DNA of 53,196 bases from an uncultured bacterium (GTDB lineage Bacteria > Bacillota > Clostridia > Lachnospirales > Lachnospiraceae). Below are positions 1 to 12,700 of this stretch, one piece after another. Location: contig CANDBT010000031.1 in the NCBI GenBank assembly GCA_947383005.1, forward strand, positions 1 to 53,196, read 5' to 3'. The notes under the pieces are model-generated. The model was given only the letters and a program-made list of their open reading frames with translations. It searched no databases and was not told the origin of the DNA. The translations under genes and the position numbers were made by a program. Every line of letters starts with the position of its first letter. The stretch's first letter is position 1.

Positions 1-46
1 ATATTACGCAATATGTATTGACATATTGCGTAATATGTAATATAAT
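1..46 (+). promoter_or_regulatory. Promoter P1 with overlapping palindromic operator
   Basis: Perfect 16-base inverted arms (1-16 and 21-36) are separated by ATTG. A TTGACA -35 box (18-23) lies in the centre of the palindrome and a TATAAT -10 box (41-46) follows after 17 bp. A repressor bound here would cover the -35 region. The same unit recurs at 642-687. The operator reading is inference; the palindrome and boxes are seen directly. Confidence 0.8.
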
Positions 47-78
47 GAATATATCAAATGAAAGAGAGGTAAAGCACC

Positions 79-333
79 ATGAAAGAATTGTTAAAGAGAT
101 TGAAAGAGGCAGAGAAAAAAGCAGATGCAGCCGATCGGGAGTATGAAAACGATCCGGAAAATGAGGAAAAAGAAAAGGCTTTTGATTTGGCATATAGCGA
201 GGAATACAAAGCGTTTGAGGCGTTGGCAAGGGAAATAGTAAAAGCGACAGCGGGAAAGATTGATACACAGACAGCGGCGGCGATGATTAGAGGCAGGCGG
301 CAGCAGTTGGAAACCATTTTAGAAATGATGTAG
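79..333 (+). CDS. Small charged helical protein, unknown
   Basis: 84 residues from ATG with a GAGAGGTAAAG ribosome site upstream. The sequence is rich in Lys, Glu and Ala with heptad-like spacing in the first 60 residues, so it is probably all-helical and cytoplasmic. It has no signal peptide or membrane segment. It is the first gene after promoter P1 and lies 11 bases ahead of the next gene, so the two are likely co-transcribed. I do not recognise the family; the context suggests cargo of a plasmid-like or integrative element. Confidence 0.65.
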   Translation: MKELLKRLKEAEKKADAADREYENDPENEEKEKAFDLAYSEEYKAFEALAREIVKATAGKIDTQTAAAMIRGRRQQLETILEMM

Positions 334-344
334 GAGGCGGGGAA

Positions 345-632
345 ATGGCAGAGTATGGCGAATTGGTAAAGGCAGCAATCAGAGAGGCACAGCAGACAGC
401 GGCAGAGCAAAGGAAGAAAGCCACAGTTTCGGAAATATACGAAGGGCAGTTATTGGAAACGGAATACATAAAGCGCGGCGGCGCGATTTGGCAACAAATA
501 AGGGTTGACGGAAAAGTGACGAGTGAAAACAGAGTATATAAAGTAAATTCTGATAAACCATATACAAGGGGTTTCGGGCGGTACTGGTATTTGGACGATG
601 AGGCAAAAGAGGCGATGCGGGCAGCTTTATAA
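345..632 (+). CDS. Small hypothetical protein, second gene of the P1 unit
   Basis: 95 residues starting at ATG behind a strong GGAGGCGGGG site. The N-terminal third looks helical (Ala, Glu and Gln rich). The C-terminal part is richer in aromatic residues and Gly (for example YTRGFGRYWYLDDE near residues 73-86) and may form a small beta fold. There is no membrane segment. It is followed at once by the second operator/promoter unit at 642. Family not recognised; a role in element maintenance is only a guess from its position. Confidence 0.65.
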   Translation: MAEYGELVKAAIREAQQTAAEQRKKATVSEIYEGQLLETEYIKRGGAIWQQIRVDGKVTSENRVYKVNSDKPYTRGFGRYWYLDDEAKEAMRAAL

Positions 633-641
633 AATTTATAG

Positions 642-687
642 ATATTACGCAATATGTATTGACATATTGCGTAATATGTGTTATAAT
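642..687 (+). promoter_or_regulatory. Promoter P2 with the same palindromic operator
   Basis: This repeats the 1-46 unit: arms 642-657 and 662-677 with an ATTG spacer, TTGACA at 659-664, 17-bp spacing and TATAAT at 682-687. It should drive the 43-residue peptide and probably the RHH gene. Identity between the two operators implies control by one factor. Confidence 0.8.
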
Positions 688-691
688 ATCC

Positions 692-904
692 ATGTAAACA
701 GTTAAGGGGCAGCACAAAGGAAAGGAAACAAGCCCCATGATAAAGTTAATAGAAGTTTTGGCAGAAATAGCAATAGTAACAGTCATTGTCTTAGAGATAA
801 TCGAGGACATAAAAAATAGGGTTGACAGCGACCAAACCGACAACCCCAAAGACGATAAAGAGCAGTAGTAACTAAGCAACCAAAGCCCCTTAACTGATTT
901 ACAT
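692..904 (+). repeat. Long-range inverted repeat enclosing a small ORF
   Basis: An arm at 692-710 (core CAGTTAAGGGGC) is complementary to an arm at 885-904 (core GCCCCTTAACTG) over about 19 of 20 positions. A local alternative exists: GGGGC at 706-710 can pair with GCCCC at 732-736, just ahead of the peptide start. The transcript from P2 begins near the first arm, so its 5' end can pair with the region behind the peptide stop. It could instead be the terminal repeat pair of a very small mobile element; no clear target duplication is visible. Confidence 0.6.
737..868 (+). CDS. 43-residue hydrophobic peptide, type I toxin-like
   Basis: A short ORF with ATG at 737, preceded by GGAAAGGAAA. Residues 4-23 form a Leu/Ile/Val-rich segment able to span a membrane, though it contains two Glu residues. 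The tail of about 18 residues is strongly charged (Asp, Lys, Gln). Size, single hydrophobic segment, charged tail and enclosure by complementary arms resemble type I toxin mRNAs of the TxpA/Fst/Hok kind. No sequence match to a named toxin is claimed, and no clear antisense promoter was found. It might equally be a harmless small membrane protein. Confidence 0.55.
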   Translation: MIKLIEVLAEIAIVTVIVLEIIEDIKNRVDSDQTDNPKDDKEQ

Positions 905-946
905 TATATCATGGGAGCCGGAAAAGTCAAGAAGGGAGGGCTGAAA

Positions 947-1129
947 TTGCGATCCAACAATGAGTTTAACCAAATTGCATACCAAAACGACTATATCAAA
1001 GAAAAGTACGATCGGATCAATTTAACGGTGCCAAAGGGCAGAAAGGAGGAAATAAAGAAAAAGGCAGCAGCAGCAGGAAAGAGCGTGAACGAATATATTA
1101 ACAGCTTAATTGATAATGACATGAATTAA
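947..1129 (+). CDS. Ribbon-helix-helix (Arc-like) DNA-binding protein
   Basis: 60 residues from a TTG at 947 with GGGAGGG six bases upstream. An in-frame ATG at 911 would add 12 residues but has no ribosome site. Residues from about 22 onward read as a short beta strand (RINLTVP), a Lys-rich helix and a second helix ending SVNEYINSLI, the usual Arc/MetJ/CopG pattern. Such proteins bind inverted repeats as dimers and often regulate plasmid or toxin-antitoxin genes. The nearby identical palindromes at 1-36 and 642-677 are plausible targets, which is inference. It lies downstream of the 43-residue peptide. Confidence 0.7.
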   Translation: MRSNNEFNQIAYQNDYIKEKYDRINLTVPKGRKEEIKKKAAAAGKSVNEYINSLIDNDMN

Positions 1130-1147
1130 AAAGTTTGGCGCGTGTAA

Positions 1148-1182
1148 AGGGCGGCAGGTAGACTATTACCCGCCGCCCTTCG
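1148..1182 (+). other. Strong hairpin between the RHH gene and the transposase
   Basis: AAGGGCGGC and GCCGCCCTT pair across a loop of about 16 bases. No T-run follows (the next bases are CGGCGTG), so it is not a typical intrinsic terminator. It may attenuate read-through into the transposase or protect the upstream mRNA end. Confidence 0.5.
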
Positions 1183-1213
1183 GCGTGTGCAGAAAGGAAG
1201 ATGATACAATTTT

Positions 1214-2248
1214 ATGAAATCATTCAAACAATTTACATATAATGACCGGTTGCGGTTGGAGGTATTGGTTAAGGCAAAGCATACACCAAAGGAGATCGCG
1301 GAAATTCTACATTTCCATATAAGCACGATTTACAGAGAATTAAACCGAGGACAGTTTGAGGCGTTAAATTCGGATCTCACAAAAGAAATGAGATATAGCC
1401 CCGACATAGCACAGCAGCATAAAGAGGAGGTTTTAGCTGCAAAGGGCGCAGATCTGAAAATTGGAAACGAGCAGGCATTTGCAGACCGGATAGAGGAAAT
1501 CATAATAAACGAGGGGTACAGCCCTGCGGCGGCACTGGCAAAAGTGAAAGCTGAAGGATATGATTTTTCAATATGCGTAACCACTCTATACAGTTACATT
1601 GATAAAGGCGTTTTCTTAAATTTGACAATGAAACACCTGCCGGAAAAGAGAAAAGGGGAGAAGAAACACAAGAGGAAAACCACACAAAAGCGGGCTACAA
1701 AGGGGGAGAGCATCGAGAACAGACCGGACGAAATAGACACGCGGGAGGAATTTGGGCATTGGGAAATGGATACCGTTGTAGGGGCGCGGGGCGTTTCCAA
1801 AAAGTCTTTATTGGTACTGACAGAGCGGAAAACACGAAAGGAAATAATATTTTTACTGAAAGAGCATACATCGGCAGCAGTTGTAAAGGCATTAGACCGG
1901 TTGGAAAGGAAGTTAGGAAAGAAATTTAGAGAAATCTTTAAAAGTATAACCGTAGACAATGGATCGGAATTTGCAGATTGGGAAGGAATGGAGCGATCCA
2001 AGCGTGGCAAAAAGAAAAGGACGAAAATATATTACTGTCACCCATATAGCAGTTGGGAGCGTGGCAGCAACGAGAACCAAAACAAATTAGTACGCCGTCA
2101 TATTCCAAAGGGTGTAAATTTTGATGATAAGACGCAGGGGGATATTGACAATATAGCAGAGTGGATCAATAACTACCCGCGCCGCCTGCATGAGTATAGA
2201 ACAGCAGAGGAATTATATATTAAGGAACTGGAAAAGATTGCGGCATAG
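1214..2248 (+). CDS. IS30-family transposase
   Basis: 344 residues. An N-terminal helix-turn-helix (about 8-45, TPKEIAEILHFHISTIYREL) is followed by a DDE integrase-like core. The visible catalytic positions are Asp in GHWEMDT, Asp in VDNGSEF and Glu in SNENQNK, the order expected for IS30 enzymes. Length is normal for the family, so the gene looks intact. I could not find matching terminal inverted repeats in the 85 bases before or 100 bases after the gene. It may therefore be a fixed transposase gene of a larger element rather than a complete insertion sequence. Confidence 0.9.
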   Translation: MKSFKQFTYNDRLRLEVLVKAKHTPKEIAEILHFHISTIYRELNRGQFEALNSDLTKEMRYSPDIAQQHKEEVLAAKGADLKIGNEQAFADRIEEIIINEGYSPAAALAKVKAEGYDFSICVTTLYSYIDKGVFLNLTMKHLPEKRKGEKKHKRKTTQKRATKGESIENRPDEIDTREEFGHWEMDTVVGARGVSKKSLLVLTERKTRKEIIFLLKEHTSAAVVKALDRLERKLGKKFREIFKSITVDNGSEFADWEGMERSKRGKKKRTKIYYCHPYSSWERGSNENQNKLVRRHIPKGVNFDDKTQGDIDNIAEWINNYPRRLHEYRTAEELYIKELEKIAA

Positions 2249-2443
2249 AACAAATGTTTGATATGCAAGTAGCCTTTATTTCGTGCGCCCATTTTTTAGG
2301 TATCGCAGAAAGCGATCCGGATCCGGATCTGCATCACTCCAAAACCAAAACTTGTATTATGTGAAAGTTGCACAATAAAACAGCTCTATTTATTGTGTAT
2401 ATTGCTGAAAGCGAAAAAATCAAAAAAACTTTCGCATTTAATG
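2249..2443. other. Non-coding gap behind the transposase
   Basis: AT-rich with no ORF of note. It holds a GATCC-rich palindrome near 2310-2330, a hairpin CACAATAAA/TTTATTGTG (2371-2397) and GCGAAA/TTTCGC arms near 2410-2436. None is followed by a convincing T-run. It probably marks the edge of the accessory module. Confidence 0.4.
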
Positions 2444-2510
2444 TTGACATTTTCAGGGGTGATTTTTATTATAAAAAACAGTTGAAATTTTGAAAATAAT
2501 ATTGTATAAT
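2444..2510 (+). promoter_or_regulatory. Tandem promoters for tRNA-Gly(CCC)
   Basis: There are two sigma-A-like promoters with 17-bp spacing: TTGACA (2444-2449) with TATTAT (2467-2472), and TTGAAA (2482-2487) with TATAAT (2505-2510). The second would start transcription a few bases ahead of the tRNA. Confidence 0.75.
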
Positions 2511-2520
2511 ACCAATGTAT

Positions 2521-2591
<71 letters not shown>

Positions 2592-2597
2592 TTGTTT

Positions 2598-2685
2598 ATG
2601 CATATGGGTATCCAAAGAAAGACATCAGTTAAAGCTGACGGGTGTCCGGTGCGAGGAGTAAGGGAAGTACCCTTCCTACTCAATT
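2598..2685 (+). repeat. R1 dispersed palindromic repeat, copy A
   Basis: A diverged copy of the R1 family. It has a first stem-loop around GTCAGCTAAAGCTGAC (here one arm mutated) flanked by GGGTATCC/GGGTGTCC-type arms, then a second stem-loop GAGTAAGGGAA/TTCCTACTC. It starts at TATGC just after the 3' end of the tRNA. Confidence 0.75.
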
Positions 2686-2698
2686 GGTTTAAGCTATT

Positions 2699-2733
2699 AA
2701 GAACAACTTTTGGCTGAGGTTGTTCTTATTTTA
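2699..2733 (+). terminator. Terminator behind tRNA-Gly(CCC) and R1 copy A
   Basis: AAGAACAAC (2699-2707) pairs with GTTGTTCTT (2719-2727), followed by ATTTTATT. Confidence 0.8.
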
Positions 2734-2788
2734 TTGCGGGCTATTCGGAAAATGCGCAAATGAAACAGCAGTTTCCTGTATTTTACAA

Positions 2789-2814
2789 TAAAAAAAGCCT
2801 TGATTTAAAGGCTT
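2789..2814 (-). terminator. Terminator of tRNA-Gly(GCC)
   Basis: AAGCCTT (2795-2801) and AAGGCTT (2808-2814) form a stem. On the minus strand it is followed by a run of T. Confidence 0.8.
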
Positions 2815-2819
2815 CTATA

Positions 2820-2892
2820 AGCGACAGACGGGACTCGAACCCGCGACCCCGACCTTGGCAAGGTCGTACTCCACCAACTGAGCCACTGTCGC
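2820..2892 (-). tRNA. tRNA-Gly (anticodon GCC)
   Basis: Read on the minus strand the cloverleaf has acceptor GCGACAG/CTGTCGC, anticodon stem CGACC/GGTCG with loop TTGCCAA, and T stem GCGGG/CCCGT. The anticodon GCC reads GGC and GGU. It faces the other glycine tRNA across a 230-bp gap. Confidence 0.95.
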
Positions 2893-2917
2893 ACGTTATT
2901 GTATTTCAATGAAAATT

Positions 2918-2946
2918 ATTCTACCACATATCAGGAAAAAAATCAA
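2918..2946 (-). promoter_or_regulatory. Promoter of tRNA-Gly(GCC)
   Basis: On the minus strand, TTGATT (2946-2941), 17 bp, then TAGAAT (2923-2918), placed about 25 bases before the tRNA. Confidence 0.7.
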
Positions 2947-2971
2947 GAGTGTTTTTGGGATTTCTGTTGTG

Positions 2972-3000
2972 TTGAAAAACAGGCAGATTAGTGATACAAT
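2972..3000 (+). promoter_or_regulatory. Promoter of the HD-domain gene
   Basis: TTGAAA (2972-2977), 17 bp, TACAAT (2995-3000), giving a leader of about 50 bases. Confidence 0.7.
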
Positions 3001-6511: not shown

Positions 6512-6600
6512 GTGCACACGGGCACCCGAAGGAAGATGTCAGCTAAAGCTGACGGGTGCCCGGCGCGGCGAGTAGGGGAAATAGCCTCCCCTACTCGATT
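6512..6600 (+). repeat. R1 dispersed repeat, copy E (best-preserved)
   Basis: Complete copy: CGGGCACCC, GTCAGCTAAAGCTGAC, GGGTGCCCG, then CGAGTAGGGGAA/CCTCCCCTACTCG. Both stems are nearly perfect. The repeat is open in the recD2 frame, which wrongly lengthens that ORF by 44 codons if the furthest start is used. Confidence 0.85.
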
Positions 6601-6643
6601 TAAGGGACAGGGTGAGGATACAAGGGAATGGCGGGCGGCATAT

Positions 6644-8878
6644 ATGGCAACAGTAAAAGGATATGTGGAGAAAATAAAATTCCGTAATGAAGAAAATGGC
6701 TACTCGGTTCTGCAGGTAGGTTATGAGGGGAAGGATTACGTGCTGGTAGGATCTTTCGCTTACATAAATGAAGGTGATTTAATTGAAGCTGAAGGCCGGG
6801 AGAACGCCCACCCAGTTTACGGAGAACAGTTCCAGGTGGAAAGCTATGAATTGAAAGAACCGGAAGATGCCGCTTCTATGGAACGCTATCTGGCTTCCGG
6901 CGCCATTAAAGGGATAAAAGCGGCTTTGGCTGCGCGGATTGTCCGGCGATTTAAGGCGGATACATTTAGGATTATGGAGGAAGAGCCGGACAAACTGGCA
7001 CAGATTAAGGGAATCAGCGAAAAAATGGCATATTCCTTTTCGCAACAGATGGAGGATAAAAGGGATATGCGTCAGGCCATGATGTTTTTGCAGGGTTATG
7101 GGATTTCCATGAATTTGGCTTTGAAAATTTATCAGAAATATGGCTCAAAGCTATATGGAATTATTAAAGAAAATCCGTATCGTTTGGTGGATGATATTCA
7201 AGGCGTAGGGTTTAAAATTGCTGACGAAATTGCCCAAAAGGCAGGGATAACGGCAGATTCCGATTATCGGCTTCGCAGCGGGATTTTTTATTGCCTTCTC
7301 CAGTCTGTCGCAGGCGGACATACCTATCTTCCTCAGGAAGAGTTGATAAACAACGCAACAGATCTTCTGCATGTACCGCTTGACATGATGGAAAAACATC
7401 TGATGGATTTGCAGATGGAAAAGAAGATAGTGATTAAGATGGGTGGCGAACAGTCGGAAATTCGTCAAATTTATGCTGCTTCTTACTATTACATGGAACT
7501 AAACGCTGCCCGAATGCTCCATGACTTGAATATTCGGGGAAATGAAGCCGAGGAGAAAATCCGCGGACGTTTAAAACAAATTCAGGCTGAGGAAAAGATT
7601 GAGCCGGACGAGCTACAGATTCAGGCAGTAATTCAGGCGGTTAATTGCGGCCTTTTGATTATTACCGGCGGGCCGGGTACTGGTAAAACCACTACAATCA
7701 ATACAATTATCCGTTATTTTGAACAGGAAGGGATGACTATACTTTTAGCGGCGCCAACCGGGCGGGCAGCAAAACGGATGACAGAGGCTACCGGCTATGA
7801 AGCAAGTACCATTCATCGGTTATTGGAATTGACAGGCATACCTGATGATGCCGGAGGGACTTCCAGCATGCACTTTGAACGAAATGAGGAGAACCCGCTG
7901 GAGGCAGATGCGGTTATTATTGATGAAACCTCGATGGTAGATATTTATTTGTTTCATGCACTTTTACGAGCCATAAATCCAGGAACCAGACTGATATTGG
8001 TGGGGGATGTAAGCCAGCTTCCCAGCGTGGGGGCAGGAAATGTGTTGCGGGATATAATTAATTCCGGCTATTGTCAGACGGTATGCTTGAACAGGATTTT
8101 CCGGCAGGCGGCAGAAAGCGATATTATTGTCAACGCTCACAAAATTAATGCGGGAGAGCAGATACCTTTGGGAAAGCCCAGCCGGGACTTTATATTTATT
8201 CGTGGAGAACAGCCGGATGCCATTATTAAGGCTATGATTACGTTGGTAAAAGAAAAGCTGCCAGGTTATGTTCATGCAGAACCTCTGGATATTCAGATTA
8301 TGACGCCGATGCGCAAAGGGGCATTAGGGGTGGAACGGCTTAATGGCATTCTTCAGGAGTGCTTGAATCCGCCATCCTCGTCCGGTCAGGAAAAGGAAAT
8401 TGGCGGCGTTATCTATCGGGTGGGCGATAAAGTAATGCAGATAAAGAACAATTATCAAATCGAATGGGAAATTCGTGGCCTTCACGGAGTGGCGATAGAA
8501 AGCGGTACGGGGGTTTTCAATGGCGATATGGGCATTATTCGCGAGATTAACACTTTTTCCGAGGAAATGACGGTCGAATTTGATGAAAAGAGGATGGTTG
8601 ACTACAGCTTTAAACAAGCGGAAGAATTGGAGCTGGCTTATGCCATTACTATTCATAAGTCTCAGGGAAGTGAATATCCGGCAGTAGTTATTCCTGTCTT
8701 TCCCGGCCCTCGTATGCTGATGAGCAGGAATCTGATCTATACGGCAGTAACACGGGCGAAAGTTTGTGTCTGTCTGGTAGGCATACCGAGTGTTTTTCAA
8801 GAAATGGTAAATAATGAACGTGAGCAATTACGTTATACCGGTCTAAAGGAACGAATTCAGGAAATAGAGGAGGTATAG
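6644..8878 (+). CDS. recD2: RecD2-type 5'-3' DNA helicase
   Basis: 744 residues from ATG at 6644; the upstream in-frame extension lies in an R1 repeat and is not protein-like. Walker A GGPGTGKT is at about 341-348, Walker B DETSMVD at about 426, and C-terminal helicase motifs include AITIHKSQGSEY and NLIYTAVTRAK. A helix-hairpin-helix N-terminal half (AQIKGISEKMA, DDIQGVGFKIAD) is typical of RecD2, the form found in bacteria lacking RecBC. It is an ATP-dependent helicase with a role in DNA repair. The stop overlaps the comF start by one base, so the two are translationally coupled. Confidence 0.93.
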   Translation: MATVKGYVEKIKFRNEENGYSVLQVGYEGKDYVLVGSFAYINEGDLIEAEGRENAHPVYGEQFQVESYELKEPEDAASMERYLASGAIKGIKAALAARIVRRFKADTFRIMEEEPDKLAQIKGISEKMAYSFSQQMEDKRDMRQAMMFLQGYGISMNLALKIYQKYGSKLYGIIKENPYRLVDDIQGVGFKIADEIAQKAGITADSDYRLRSGIFYCLLQSVAGGHTYLPQEELINNATDLLHVPLDMMEKHLMDLQMEKKIVIKMGGEQSEIRQIYAASYYYMELNAARMLHDLNIRGNEAEEKIRGRLKQIQAEEKIEPDELQIQAVIQAVNCGLLIITGGPGTGKTTTINTIIRYFEQEGMTILLAAPTGRAAKRMTEATGYEASTIHRLLELTGIPDDAGGTSSMHFERNEENPLEADAVIIDETSMVDIYLFHALLRAINPGTRLILVGDVSQLPSVGAGNVLRDIINSGYCQTVCLNRIFRQAAESDIIVNAHKINAGEQIPLGKPSRDFIFIRGEQPDAIIKAMITLVKEKLPGYVHAEPLDIQIMTPMRKGALGVERLNGILQECLNPPSSSGQEKEIGGVIYRVGDKVMQIKNNYQIEWEIRGLHGVAIESGTGVFNGDMGIIREINTFSEEMTVEFDEKRMVDYSFKQAEELELAYAITIHKSQGSEYPAVVIPVFPGPRMLMSRNLIYTAVTRAKVCVCLVGIPSVFQEMVNNEREQLRYTGLKERIQEIEEV

Positions 8879-12527: not shown

Positions 12528-12556
12528 TTGACAAGAAAAATTGATTATGGTACTAT
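12528..12556 (+). promoter_or_regulatory. Promoter of rplJ-rplL
   Basis: TTGACA (12528-12533), 17 bp, TACTAT (12551-12556). The transcript starts just ahead of the L10 leader. Confidence 0.75.
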
Positions 12557-12565
12557 AACTAAGTA

Positions 12566-12700
12566 TTGACTGCCGAAGACAGCAGGCGCCGAAAGGCATA
12601 AGGTGGAACCGCCTGCCGAGGAAACATACAAATCTGTTTTAATAATGAATTTGTAGAGCCTCTTTGTCGTGCTGCGGCAGAGAGGTTTTTGTGTTCCAGC
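12566..12700 (+). ncRNA. Ribosomal protein L10 leader with attenuator
   Basis: The conserved L10(L12)4 binding region is visible (CCGAAGACAGCAGGC, then GGAACCGCCTGCCGAGG). It is followed by an ACAAAT/ATTTGT stem and an 11-bp terminator hairpin CCTCTTTGTCG/CGGCAGAGAGG (12659-12686) with five T. In Firmicutes such leaders reduce rplJL transcription when L10 is in excess. Confidence 0.85.

Follow-up and report, generated by a model that had tools for sequence, protein, structure and literature searches.

Genes and features of the locus

The window, i.e., the whole stretch of 53,196 nucleotides that was analysed, carries on its plus strand a 43-codon open reading frame (ORF) at 737-868, which had been proposed in an earlier note on this DNA and is confirmed in the sequence. 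The encoded 43-residue peptide is composed of a hydrophobic N-terminal half and a charged C-terminal tail. Its best 19-residue Kyte-Doolittle mean is 2.5, two glutamates (E6 and E10) are situated inside the hydrophobic stretch, and AlphaFold, run from six sequences, predicts a single helix spanning residues 2-35 with a mean pLDDT of 78.7. An SD (Shine-Dalgarno)-like sequence, AGGAAAGGA, is located at 718-726 on the same strand, and GCCCC at 732-736 stands beside the start codon. No credible match for the peptide, the unit or its RNA was found in Pfam, PHROGs, NCBIfam, PADLOC, Rfam or the PDB sequences; the best RNA-family match, AniS on the minus strand of 811-891, reaches 17.9 bits and is sub-threshold against a gathering score of 50. 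The peptide, being familyless in the libraries searched, is likely to be overlooked by routine annotation.

The predicted promoter of the peptide mRNA, TTGACA-17-TATAAT (659-687, plus strand), agrees with the consensus at 12 of 12 positions and lies within a palindromic double repeat at 642-677. Downstream of the peptide gene, an RHH (Arc/CopG-like) protein of 60 aa is encoded from a TTG codon at 947-1129 on the plus strand, with an SD-like AGGGAGG ahead. This protein matches phrog_13890 (E 1.7e-20) and the Arc-like repressor phrog_582 (E 2.5e-6); its match with Pfam Arc (E 0.001) is below the cut-off. It is followed by an IS30-family transposase of the phage integrase class (1214-2248, plus strand; NCBIfam transpos_IS30, E 2.5e-72; phrog_4646, E 1.2e-129), a neighbour outside the switch discussed below.

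The earlier note had counted a strong palindromic operator as part of the unit's promoter. The palindrome is present, but it belongs probably to the RHH gene, since related RHH genes are found behind a similar palindrome with no peptide unit, and we reject it as a part of the toxin unit for the same reason. A TTRCGCAA-type core is seen upstream of RHH in 15 of 20 rows (a raw count, several rows being near-identical; L051, which is like L050, and repeat fetches were left out), and variant palindromes occupy this position in the remaining five (L043, L049, L060, L061 and L003). In L046, whose RHH protein and transposase are 75% and 74% identical to those of the window, the palindromic promoter stands immediately before RHH, without the unit. 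From this comparison we infer that the palindrome is the RHH operator, to which the RHH protein would bind, and that the RHH operon contains the peptide unit as an accessory module. Copies of the palindrome with up to three mismatches occur at two places only in the window's own genome, 1-36 and 642-677. The former is part of a second palindromic promoter (1-46), probably also under control of the RHH protein, ahead of two small genes of 84 and 95 aa (79-632) for which no credible family match was found; relatives of both are present in L063, L064 and L042, and relatives of the 95-aa gene also in L040 and L041.

Opposite the ORF, the minus strand holds a predicted antisense gene, which had been overlooked in the earlier note. 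Its promoter, TTGACT-16-TATAAT at 930-903 with TG before the −10 box, agrees with 11 of 12 consensus positions and points leftwards into the ORF. One such match alone proves little, as a promoter scan of 1-3000 returned 17 sites against 7.0 expected. With the usual promoter spacing, the antisense RNA would start near 896, so that the outermost letters of the 3′ arm described below may be untranscribed, and a minus-strand RNA of about 85 nt (811-896) is predicted. It would end in a terminator (811-848) made of a hairpin at 848-817 with a UUGG loop and a U-run at 816-811. The minus-strand folds of 800-897 (z −3.59) and 804-896 (z −4.22) are equalled by 1 of 200 and 0 of 200 shuffles, respectively.

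Homologous loci and prophage setting

Searches with the peptide gave 2 of 397 family genomes (own genome included), four viral contigs and six genome records, one of which (L066) is a contig already among the family genomes. A search with the arm pattern returned two viral contigs, both already among the peptide matches. Including the window, 11 loci were obtained, of which 10 are non-identical, and they form three groups: the window, L040, L063 and L064; L041 and L042; and L043 (with the identical L067), L065, L066 and L068, termed the L043 group. L067 was omitted from the alignments because its unit is identical to that of L043, and fetches of the same contig were counted once (L039/L040/L044; L038/L043; L007/L009/L066; L041/L047; L042/L045). 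The named records are Bacterium 1XD8-76, Bacterium D16-51, and bins of uncultured Roseburia, Lachnospiraceae and Clostridia. The unit is rare. No match was obtained by blastn of 640-1135 against plasmids and phages or by tblastn of the peptide against phages, a DNA search among 61 relatives returned the own genome only, and a covariance model of the antisense strand recovered the two family genomes (of 397) that the peptide had given, and no others.

The ORF, the arms, both promoters and the terminator are kept throughout the three groups. Homologues without the arms or with a broken ORF had been named as evidence that would speak against the unit; all 11 loci retain both, with the qualification that the loci were recruited through the peptide or the arms, so that loci having lost both would escape. 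The sense promoter has TTGACA and a spacer of 17 in all 11, with a −10 box of TATAAT in six and TAAAAT in five. The minus-strand promoter is placed at the same position in 11 of 11 loci with 9-11 of 12 consensus positions: L042 has 10, the five loci of the L043 group have 9 with a weak −10 box (TAAAGT), and the remaining five have 11. Comparisons of the peptide ORF between groups give dN/dS values of 0.24, 0.25, 0.28, 0.13 and 0.19, and this range of 0.13-0.28 indicates purifying selection on the ORF. Its 3′ part has a dN/dS of 1.73 between the window and L066, a figure that derives from one synonymous change only and is probably due to the overlapping antisense terminator.

The antisense RNAs of all ten non-identical loci fold with a terminator hairpin (z −1.68 to −4.61), and the UUGG loop, a YUNR-type motif, is kept in 11 of 11; the 5′ part varies between groups and is uncertain in L068. 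In the terminator alignment, in which one of ten rows was collapsed as identical to leave nine distinct, the stem is paired in 97.2% of 107 cells and the covariation score is 0.241, each being reached by 3 of 500 shuffles. A double change is seen in one pair, as many or more being found in 382 of 500 shuffles, and most pair measures are not outstanding.

The RHH gene is found directly 3′ of the unit in 11 of 11 loci, and the IS30-family transposase comes after it in nine; in L042 and L043, the contig ends at the RHH gene. A transposase of this class is described, in an excerpted source, as the integrase of phage FP_Lagaffe (51.9% identity). In L038 and L063, the unit is located behind holin and endolysin genes, and L063 also carries a reverse transcriptase gene (phrog_1423). 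By its transposase class and gene context, the window contains the right end of such a prophage, interrupted by the start of the contig; more generally, the unit occupies the right end of prophages with IS30 transposases in gut bacteria of Lachnospiraceae type. We considered a leader that controls the transposase and dropped it, as the transposase of L041 lies ~1.4 kb beyond RHH and L046 has RHH and transposase without the unit.

Several other observations were made in and around these prophage ends. Similarity to L007 runs on behind the transposase at about 2250-2460 (by eye), up to a tRNA gene at 2521, and the prophage probably ends within this interval. L038 contains two near-repeats (about 6590-6730 and 7390-7540) that differ mostly at A positions, as judged by eye, and that resemble the variable and template repeats of a diversity-generating retroelement. 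An ordinary ribosomal protein L10 leader (RF00557, 80.8 bits) is present at 12555-12700 of the window. Contig C23 of the own genome (L003, 1500-2022, and L037) contains a second phage-type end with a similar palindromic promoter, RHH and IS30-type transposase, in which a different 50-aa ORF occupies the slot between promoter and RHH. The gap there shows a minus-strand promoter-like site matching 11 of 12 positions (1846-1818) with a structured stretch behind it (z −3.53), and a terminator scan gave none behind this site. The slot between promoter and RHH may thus be reused for antisense-controlled small genes.

Complementary arms and accessibility of the start region

The 5′ arm (693-710, plus strand) forms the beginning of the peptide mRNA leader and is a near-copy of the 5′ end of the antisense RNA, and the 3′ arm (885-903, plus strand) is its partner and the complement of the antisense 5′ region. 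Complementary arms had been proposed at 692-710 and 885-904; they are real, with exact limits of 693-710 and 885-903, and comprise 18 pairs with one bulged A (A897). As each arm is situated directly behind one of the two −10 boxes, two convergent transcripts would begin with them. Among perfect inverted matches in 688-960 whose halves are separated by at least 100 nt, the longest measures 12 bp; in 200 dinucleotide shuffles, this length averages 6.2 and never exceeds 10. The arms also pair in the fold of minimum free energy computed for 688-950 (−53.3 kcal/mol, z −2.03), which 6 of 200 shuffles equal or better. The local alternative that had been suggested is also available, since GCCCC at 732-736 can pair with GGGGC at 706-710 in the 5′ arm. 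GCCCC is retained in six of ten aligned loci. In L043 and L065-L068, a hairpin at the SD is made from GCUAC and GUAGC instead, a different sequence of the same topology.

In the ten-row alignment, 97.2% of 177 cells of the arm stem are paired, and 8 cells carry a change in both partners; none of 500 shuffles attains either value or the covariation score. Counts of doubly changed pairs (3, equalled or exceeded in 69 of 500 shuffles) and of additional pair types (5, in 72 of 500) are not outstanding. Few changes are informative: L041 and L042 have two adjacent pairs altered at both positions, and the L043 group has AU replaced by UG at one pair. With three sequence groups only, there are few independent compensations. 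The duplex of the 5′ arm with the 3′ arm is computed at −23.0 to −25.0 kcal/mol, against −26.4 to −31.6 kcal/mol for the duplex with the antisense RNA, so the 3′ arm is bound less well by the leader by 1.4-7.3 kcal/mol. The antisense RNA matches this site perfectly by definition; what matters is the imperfection of the leader, which is seen in 10 of 10 loci.

Within the complete sense RNA, pairing of the two arms has a probability of 0.91-1.00 in each of the ten loci. The earlier note had called for folding with and without the 3′ arm. The predicted pairing of the arms is borne out by it, and hiding of the SD by them is not: in the six loci of the first two groups, the SD letters are unpaired with a probability of 0.79-0.94, which rises to 0.98-1.00 once the 3′ arm is removed. 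In the L043 group (four loci), they are about two-thirds paired with or without it.

Opening the start region (−18 to +12) is computed to cost 2.0-5.4 kcal/mol in the free RNA and 7.6-13.2 kcal/mol once the stretch covered by the antisense RNA is blocked, the cost rising in 10 of 10 loci. With the tail extended to the RHH gene, the rise persists in 10 of 10 and amounts to 2.4-6.5, although opening L041 in its free state then costs 7.8 rather than 2.0. The cost goes up for all five footprints in the six loci of the first two groups and for three of five in the L043 group, in which (25,15) goes down in all four loci and (12,6) goes up in L043, is unchanged in L065 and is slightly lower in L066 and L068. 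When the 5′ arm was shuffled in four of the ten loci (window, L041, L042 and L066), the real difference was reached by 0 of 50 shuffles in each. In three of them (window, L041 and L042), no shuffle (0 of 50) gives a free state as open as the real arm does, but the closed state persists with the 5′ arm blocked, which suggests that other pairings close the start region and that freeing the arm is not the whole explanation. L066 differs: its free state is ordinary (31 of 50), and it is the bound state that the arm closes (0 of 50). The paired arms are thus predicted to act, in most but not all settings, as an opener of the start region that the antisense RNA would remove. In addition, opening of the RHH start is predicted to become cheaper by 0.2-3.2 kcal/mol upon antisense binding, in 10 of 10 loci.

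Interpretation and relation to known systems

Among the features of a type I system, a short ORF for a small hydrophobic peptide, kept under selection, is present here, and an antisense gene with its own promoter and terminator opposite that ORF is present by prediction and conservation; in a true member, the peptide would also be toxic and its synthesis repressed by the antisense RNA. It is probable that the antisense RNA controls the peptide. On balance, though with modest confidence, we favour the reading of the unit as a previously undescribed prophage module of the type I toxin-antitoxin type, with the peptide as its putative toxin and with a possible role in prophage maintenance. The type I toxin-like unit of the earlier note has accordingly gained a conserved predicted antisense gene and an ORF and arms kept in 11 of 11 loci, and it has lost support for the control logic of hok and AapA. 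According to this reading, the phage promoter with its likely RHH operator would give an mRNA for the 43-aa membrane peptide, and the convergent promoter between the peptide and RHH genes would give a short structured antisense RNA spanning the 3′ half of the peptide gene and the 3′ arm. As the mRNA leader is a slightly imperfect copy of the antisense 5′ region, both would compete for the 3′ site. The start region would be more open while leader and 3′ arm are paired, and it would close once the antisense RNA has taken the 3′ site, the resulting duplex being a presumable target of RNase III. Counting against this reading are the glutamates within the hydrophobic stretch, the absence of a family match for the peptide, and, in the L043 group, the weak antisense −10 box and the two footprints that fail to show closing.

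The layout is similar to that of yonT/SR6 of the Bacillus subtilis SPβ prophage, in which a polycistronic prophage mRNA is likewise involved (excerpted account, PMC5848175); the antisense RNA covers the 3′ end of the toxin or putative toxin gene in both, polycistrony being the expected arrangement here. The next gene is a second toxin, yoyJ, in that system and the RHH gene here, and inverted arms, which are present here, are not mentioned in the excerpts of that account (PMC5848175). The likeness noted here is one of layout; no credible match in Pfam, NCBIfam, PHROGs or Rfam links toxin or antitoxin of the two. The convergent type I pairs of Clostridioides difficile prophages share the same layout. 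In bsrG/SR4 of B. subtilis, pairing of the antisense RNA at the 3′ end closes the distant ribosome site, and such remote closing from the 3′ end perhaps occurs here too; there, however, the stem at the ribosome-binding site grows from 4 to 8 nt, whereas here the predicted change is the loss of a long-range stem formed by two versions of the antisense start sequence (excerpted account, PMC4147584).

The Fst/Ldr family, including par of pAD1, is similar in its small hydrophobic peptide with a charged tail, its convergent promoters, its repeats at RNA interaction sites and its YUNR loop motif, which in par starts the RNA contact from the toxin RNA (in the portion of the review cited, PMC7472228). 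Nevertheless, PXXXG in the membrane helix and a tryptophan before the charged tail are absent from 11 of 11 peptides, of which the tryptophan is also lacking in Fst of pAD1 itself (PMC7472228, same portion). The repeats are direct in that family and inverted here, and the terminator, shared and bidirectional there, serves the antisense strand only, as no plus-strand T-run is seen by eye behind the hairpin (PMC7472228, same portion). Membership in Fst/Ldr is rejected on these four grounds.

Given the RHH gene in the same operon, phage regulation similar to that by sar of phage P22 is the main rival. Arc of P22 is an RHH repressor. In P22, the antisense RNA sar arises from the arc-ant intergenic region of a phage operon (as excerpted from PMC7968456), and by analogy the antisense RNA of the window would tune the RHH-repressor operon, with the peptide as a small regulatory or leader product rather than a toxin. 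RHH directly behind the unit in all 11 loci, the antisense start in the gap before it, the easier predicted opening of the RHH start upon antisense binding and the second prophage end of the own genome, with its different small ORF and promoter-like site in the same slot, are consistent with this alternative. However, sar blocks the ribosome site of the downstream gene ant (PMC7968456, same excerpt), whereas the antisense RNA here lies over the upstream peptide gene and points away from the RHH start. The L046 phage end, which has RHH behind the palindromic promoter without the unit, and the selection on a membrane-type peptide also speak against regulation of the P22 kind, which we regard as unlikely, if a serious contender.

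It is rather improbable that the antisense-controlled peptide is a non-toxic phage accessory, acting in superinfection exclusion or in modulation of lysis. The location right behind the holin and endolysin genes in L038 and L063 argues for such a product, and the related phage end without the unit (L046) points to an accessory nature; on the other side, no known exclusion or lysis protein was matched in PHROGs, Pfam or PADLOC, and antisense control of this type is best known from toxins.

The control logic that the earlier note had adopted is that of hok and AapA, in which the 5′-3′ pairing would be the silent form and trimming of the 3′ end would activate the mRNA. In aapA/IsoA of Helicobacter pylori, long-distance pairing traps the SD and silences the mRNA (excerpted account, PMC6733600). 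The unit resembles aapA/IsoA (PMC6733600) and hok/Sok (PMC4147584) in that alternative 5′-3′ and local pairings are available to the mRNA of a small toxin with an antisense RNA, again as far as the excerpted accounts go; the strong arm pairing in ten loci, the local 5′ hairpin and the slightly greater exposure of the SD letters without the 3′ arm in six loci agree with it. In contrast to both systems, where the long-distance pairing silences (PMC6733600, PMC4147584, same excerpts), the paired arms are predicted here to leave the start region open. The SD is outside the arm stem, pairing of the arms does not hide the region from −18 to +12 in any of ten loci (other footprints being mixed in four), and no evident terminator stands at the 3′ arm for the sense RNA (partly by eye), which probably continues into RHH. 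We therefore hold silencing by long-range pairing to be quite improbable. The chance that the unit is a small transposable or invertible element with the arms as terminal repeats, another suggestion of the earlier note, is negligible: although the arms are inverted repeats and the unit is absent from the L046 phage end, all 11 loci have it in one orientation and one position (palindromic promoter, unit, RHH), the arms coincide with the transcript starts and covary, and DNA similarity reveals no second copy of arms and ORF in the own genome.

For the type I toxin-antitoxin reading, a more specific design can be put forward tentatively, as a possibility that we do not consider probable. The leader would be an evolved, weaker copy of the antisense 5′ end, giving a cis-competitor type I switch combined with an RHH autorepressor acting at the promoter, in phages with IS30 transposases. 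The leader would hold the 3′ target in cis and keep the start open, and the antisense RNA would displace this strand and turn translation off from about 150 nt away. The likelihood of both the toxin-antitoxin reading and the cis-competitor design is slightly lowered by the exposure of the SD, the sensitivity of L041 to the tail and the effect on the RHH start. A search of one open-access collection returned no paper matching a type I design by strand displacement, which may nevertheless exist in print. If correct, the proposal would add a family of membrane peptides under antisense control in phages of gut Lachnospiraceae, together with a mode of regulation whereby the mRNA leader and the antisense RNA are two copies of one sequence that compete for one site.
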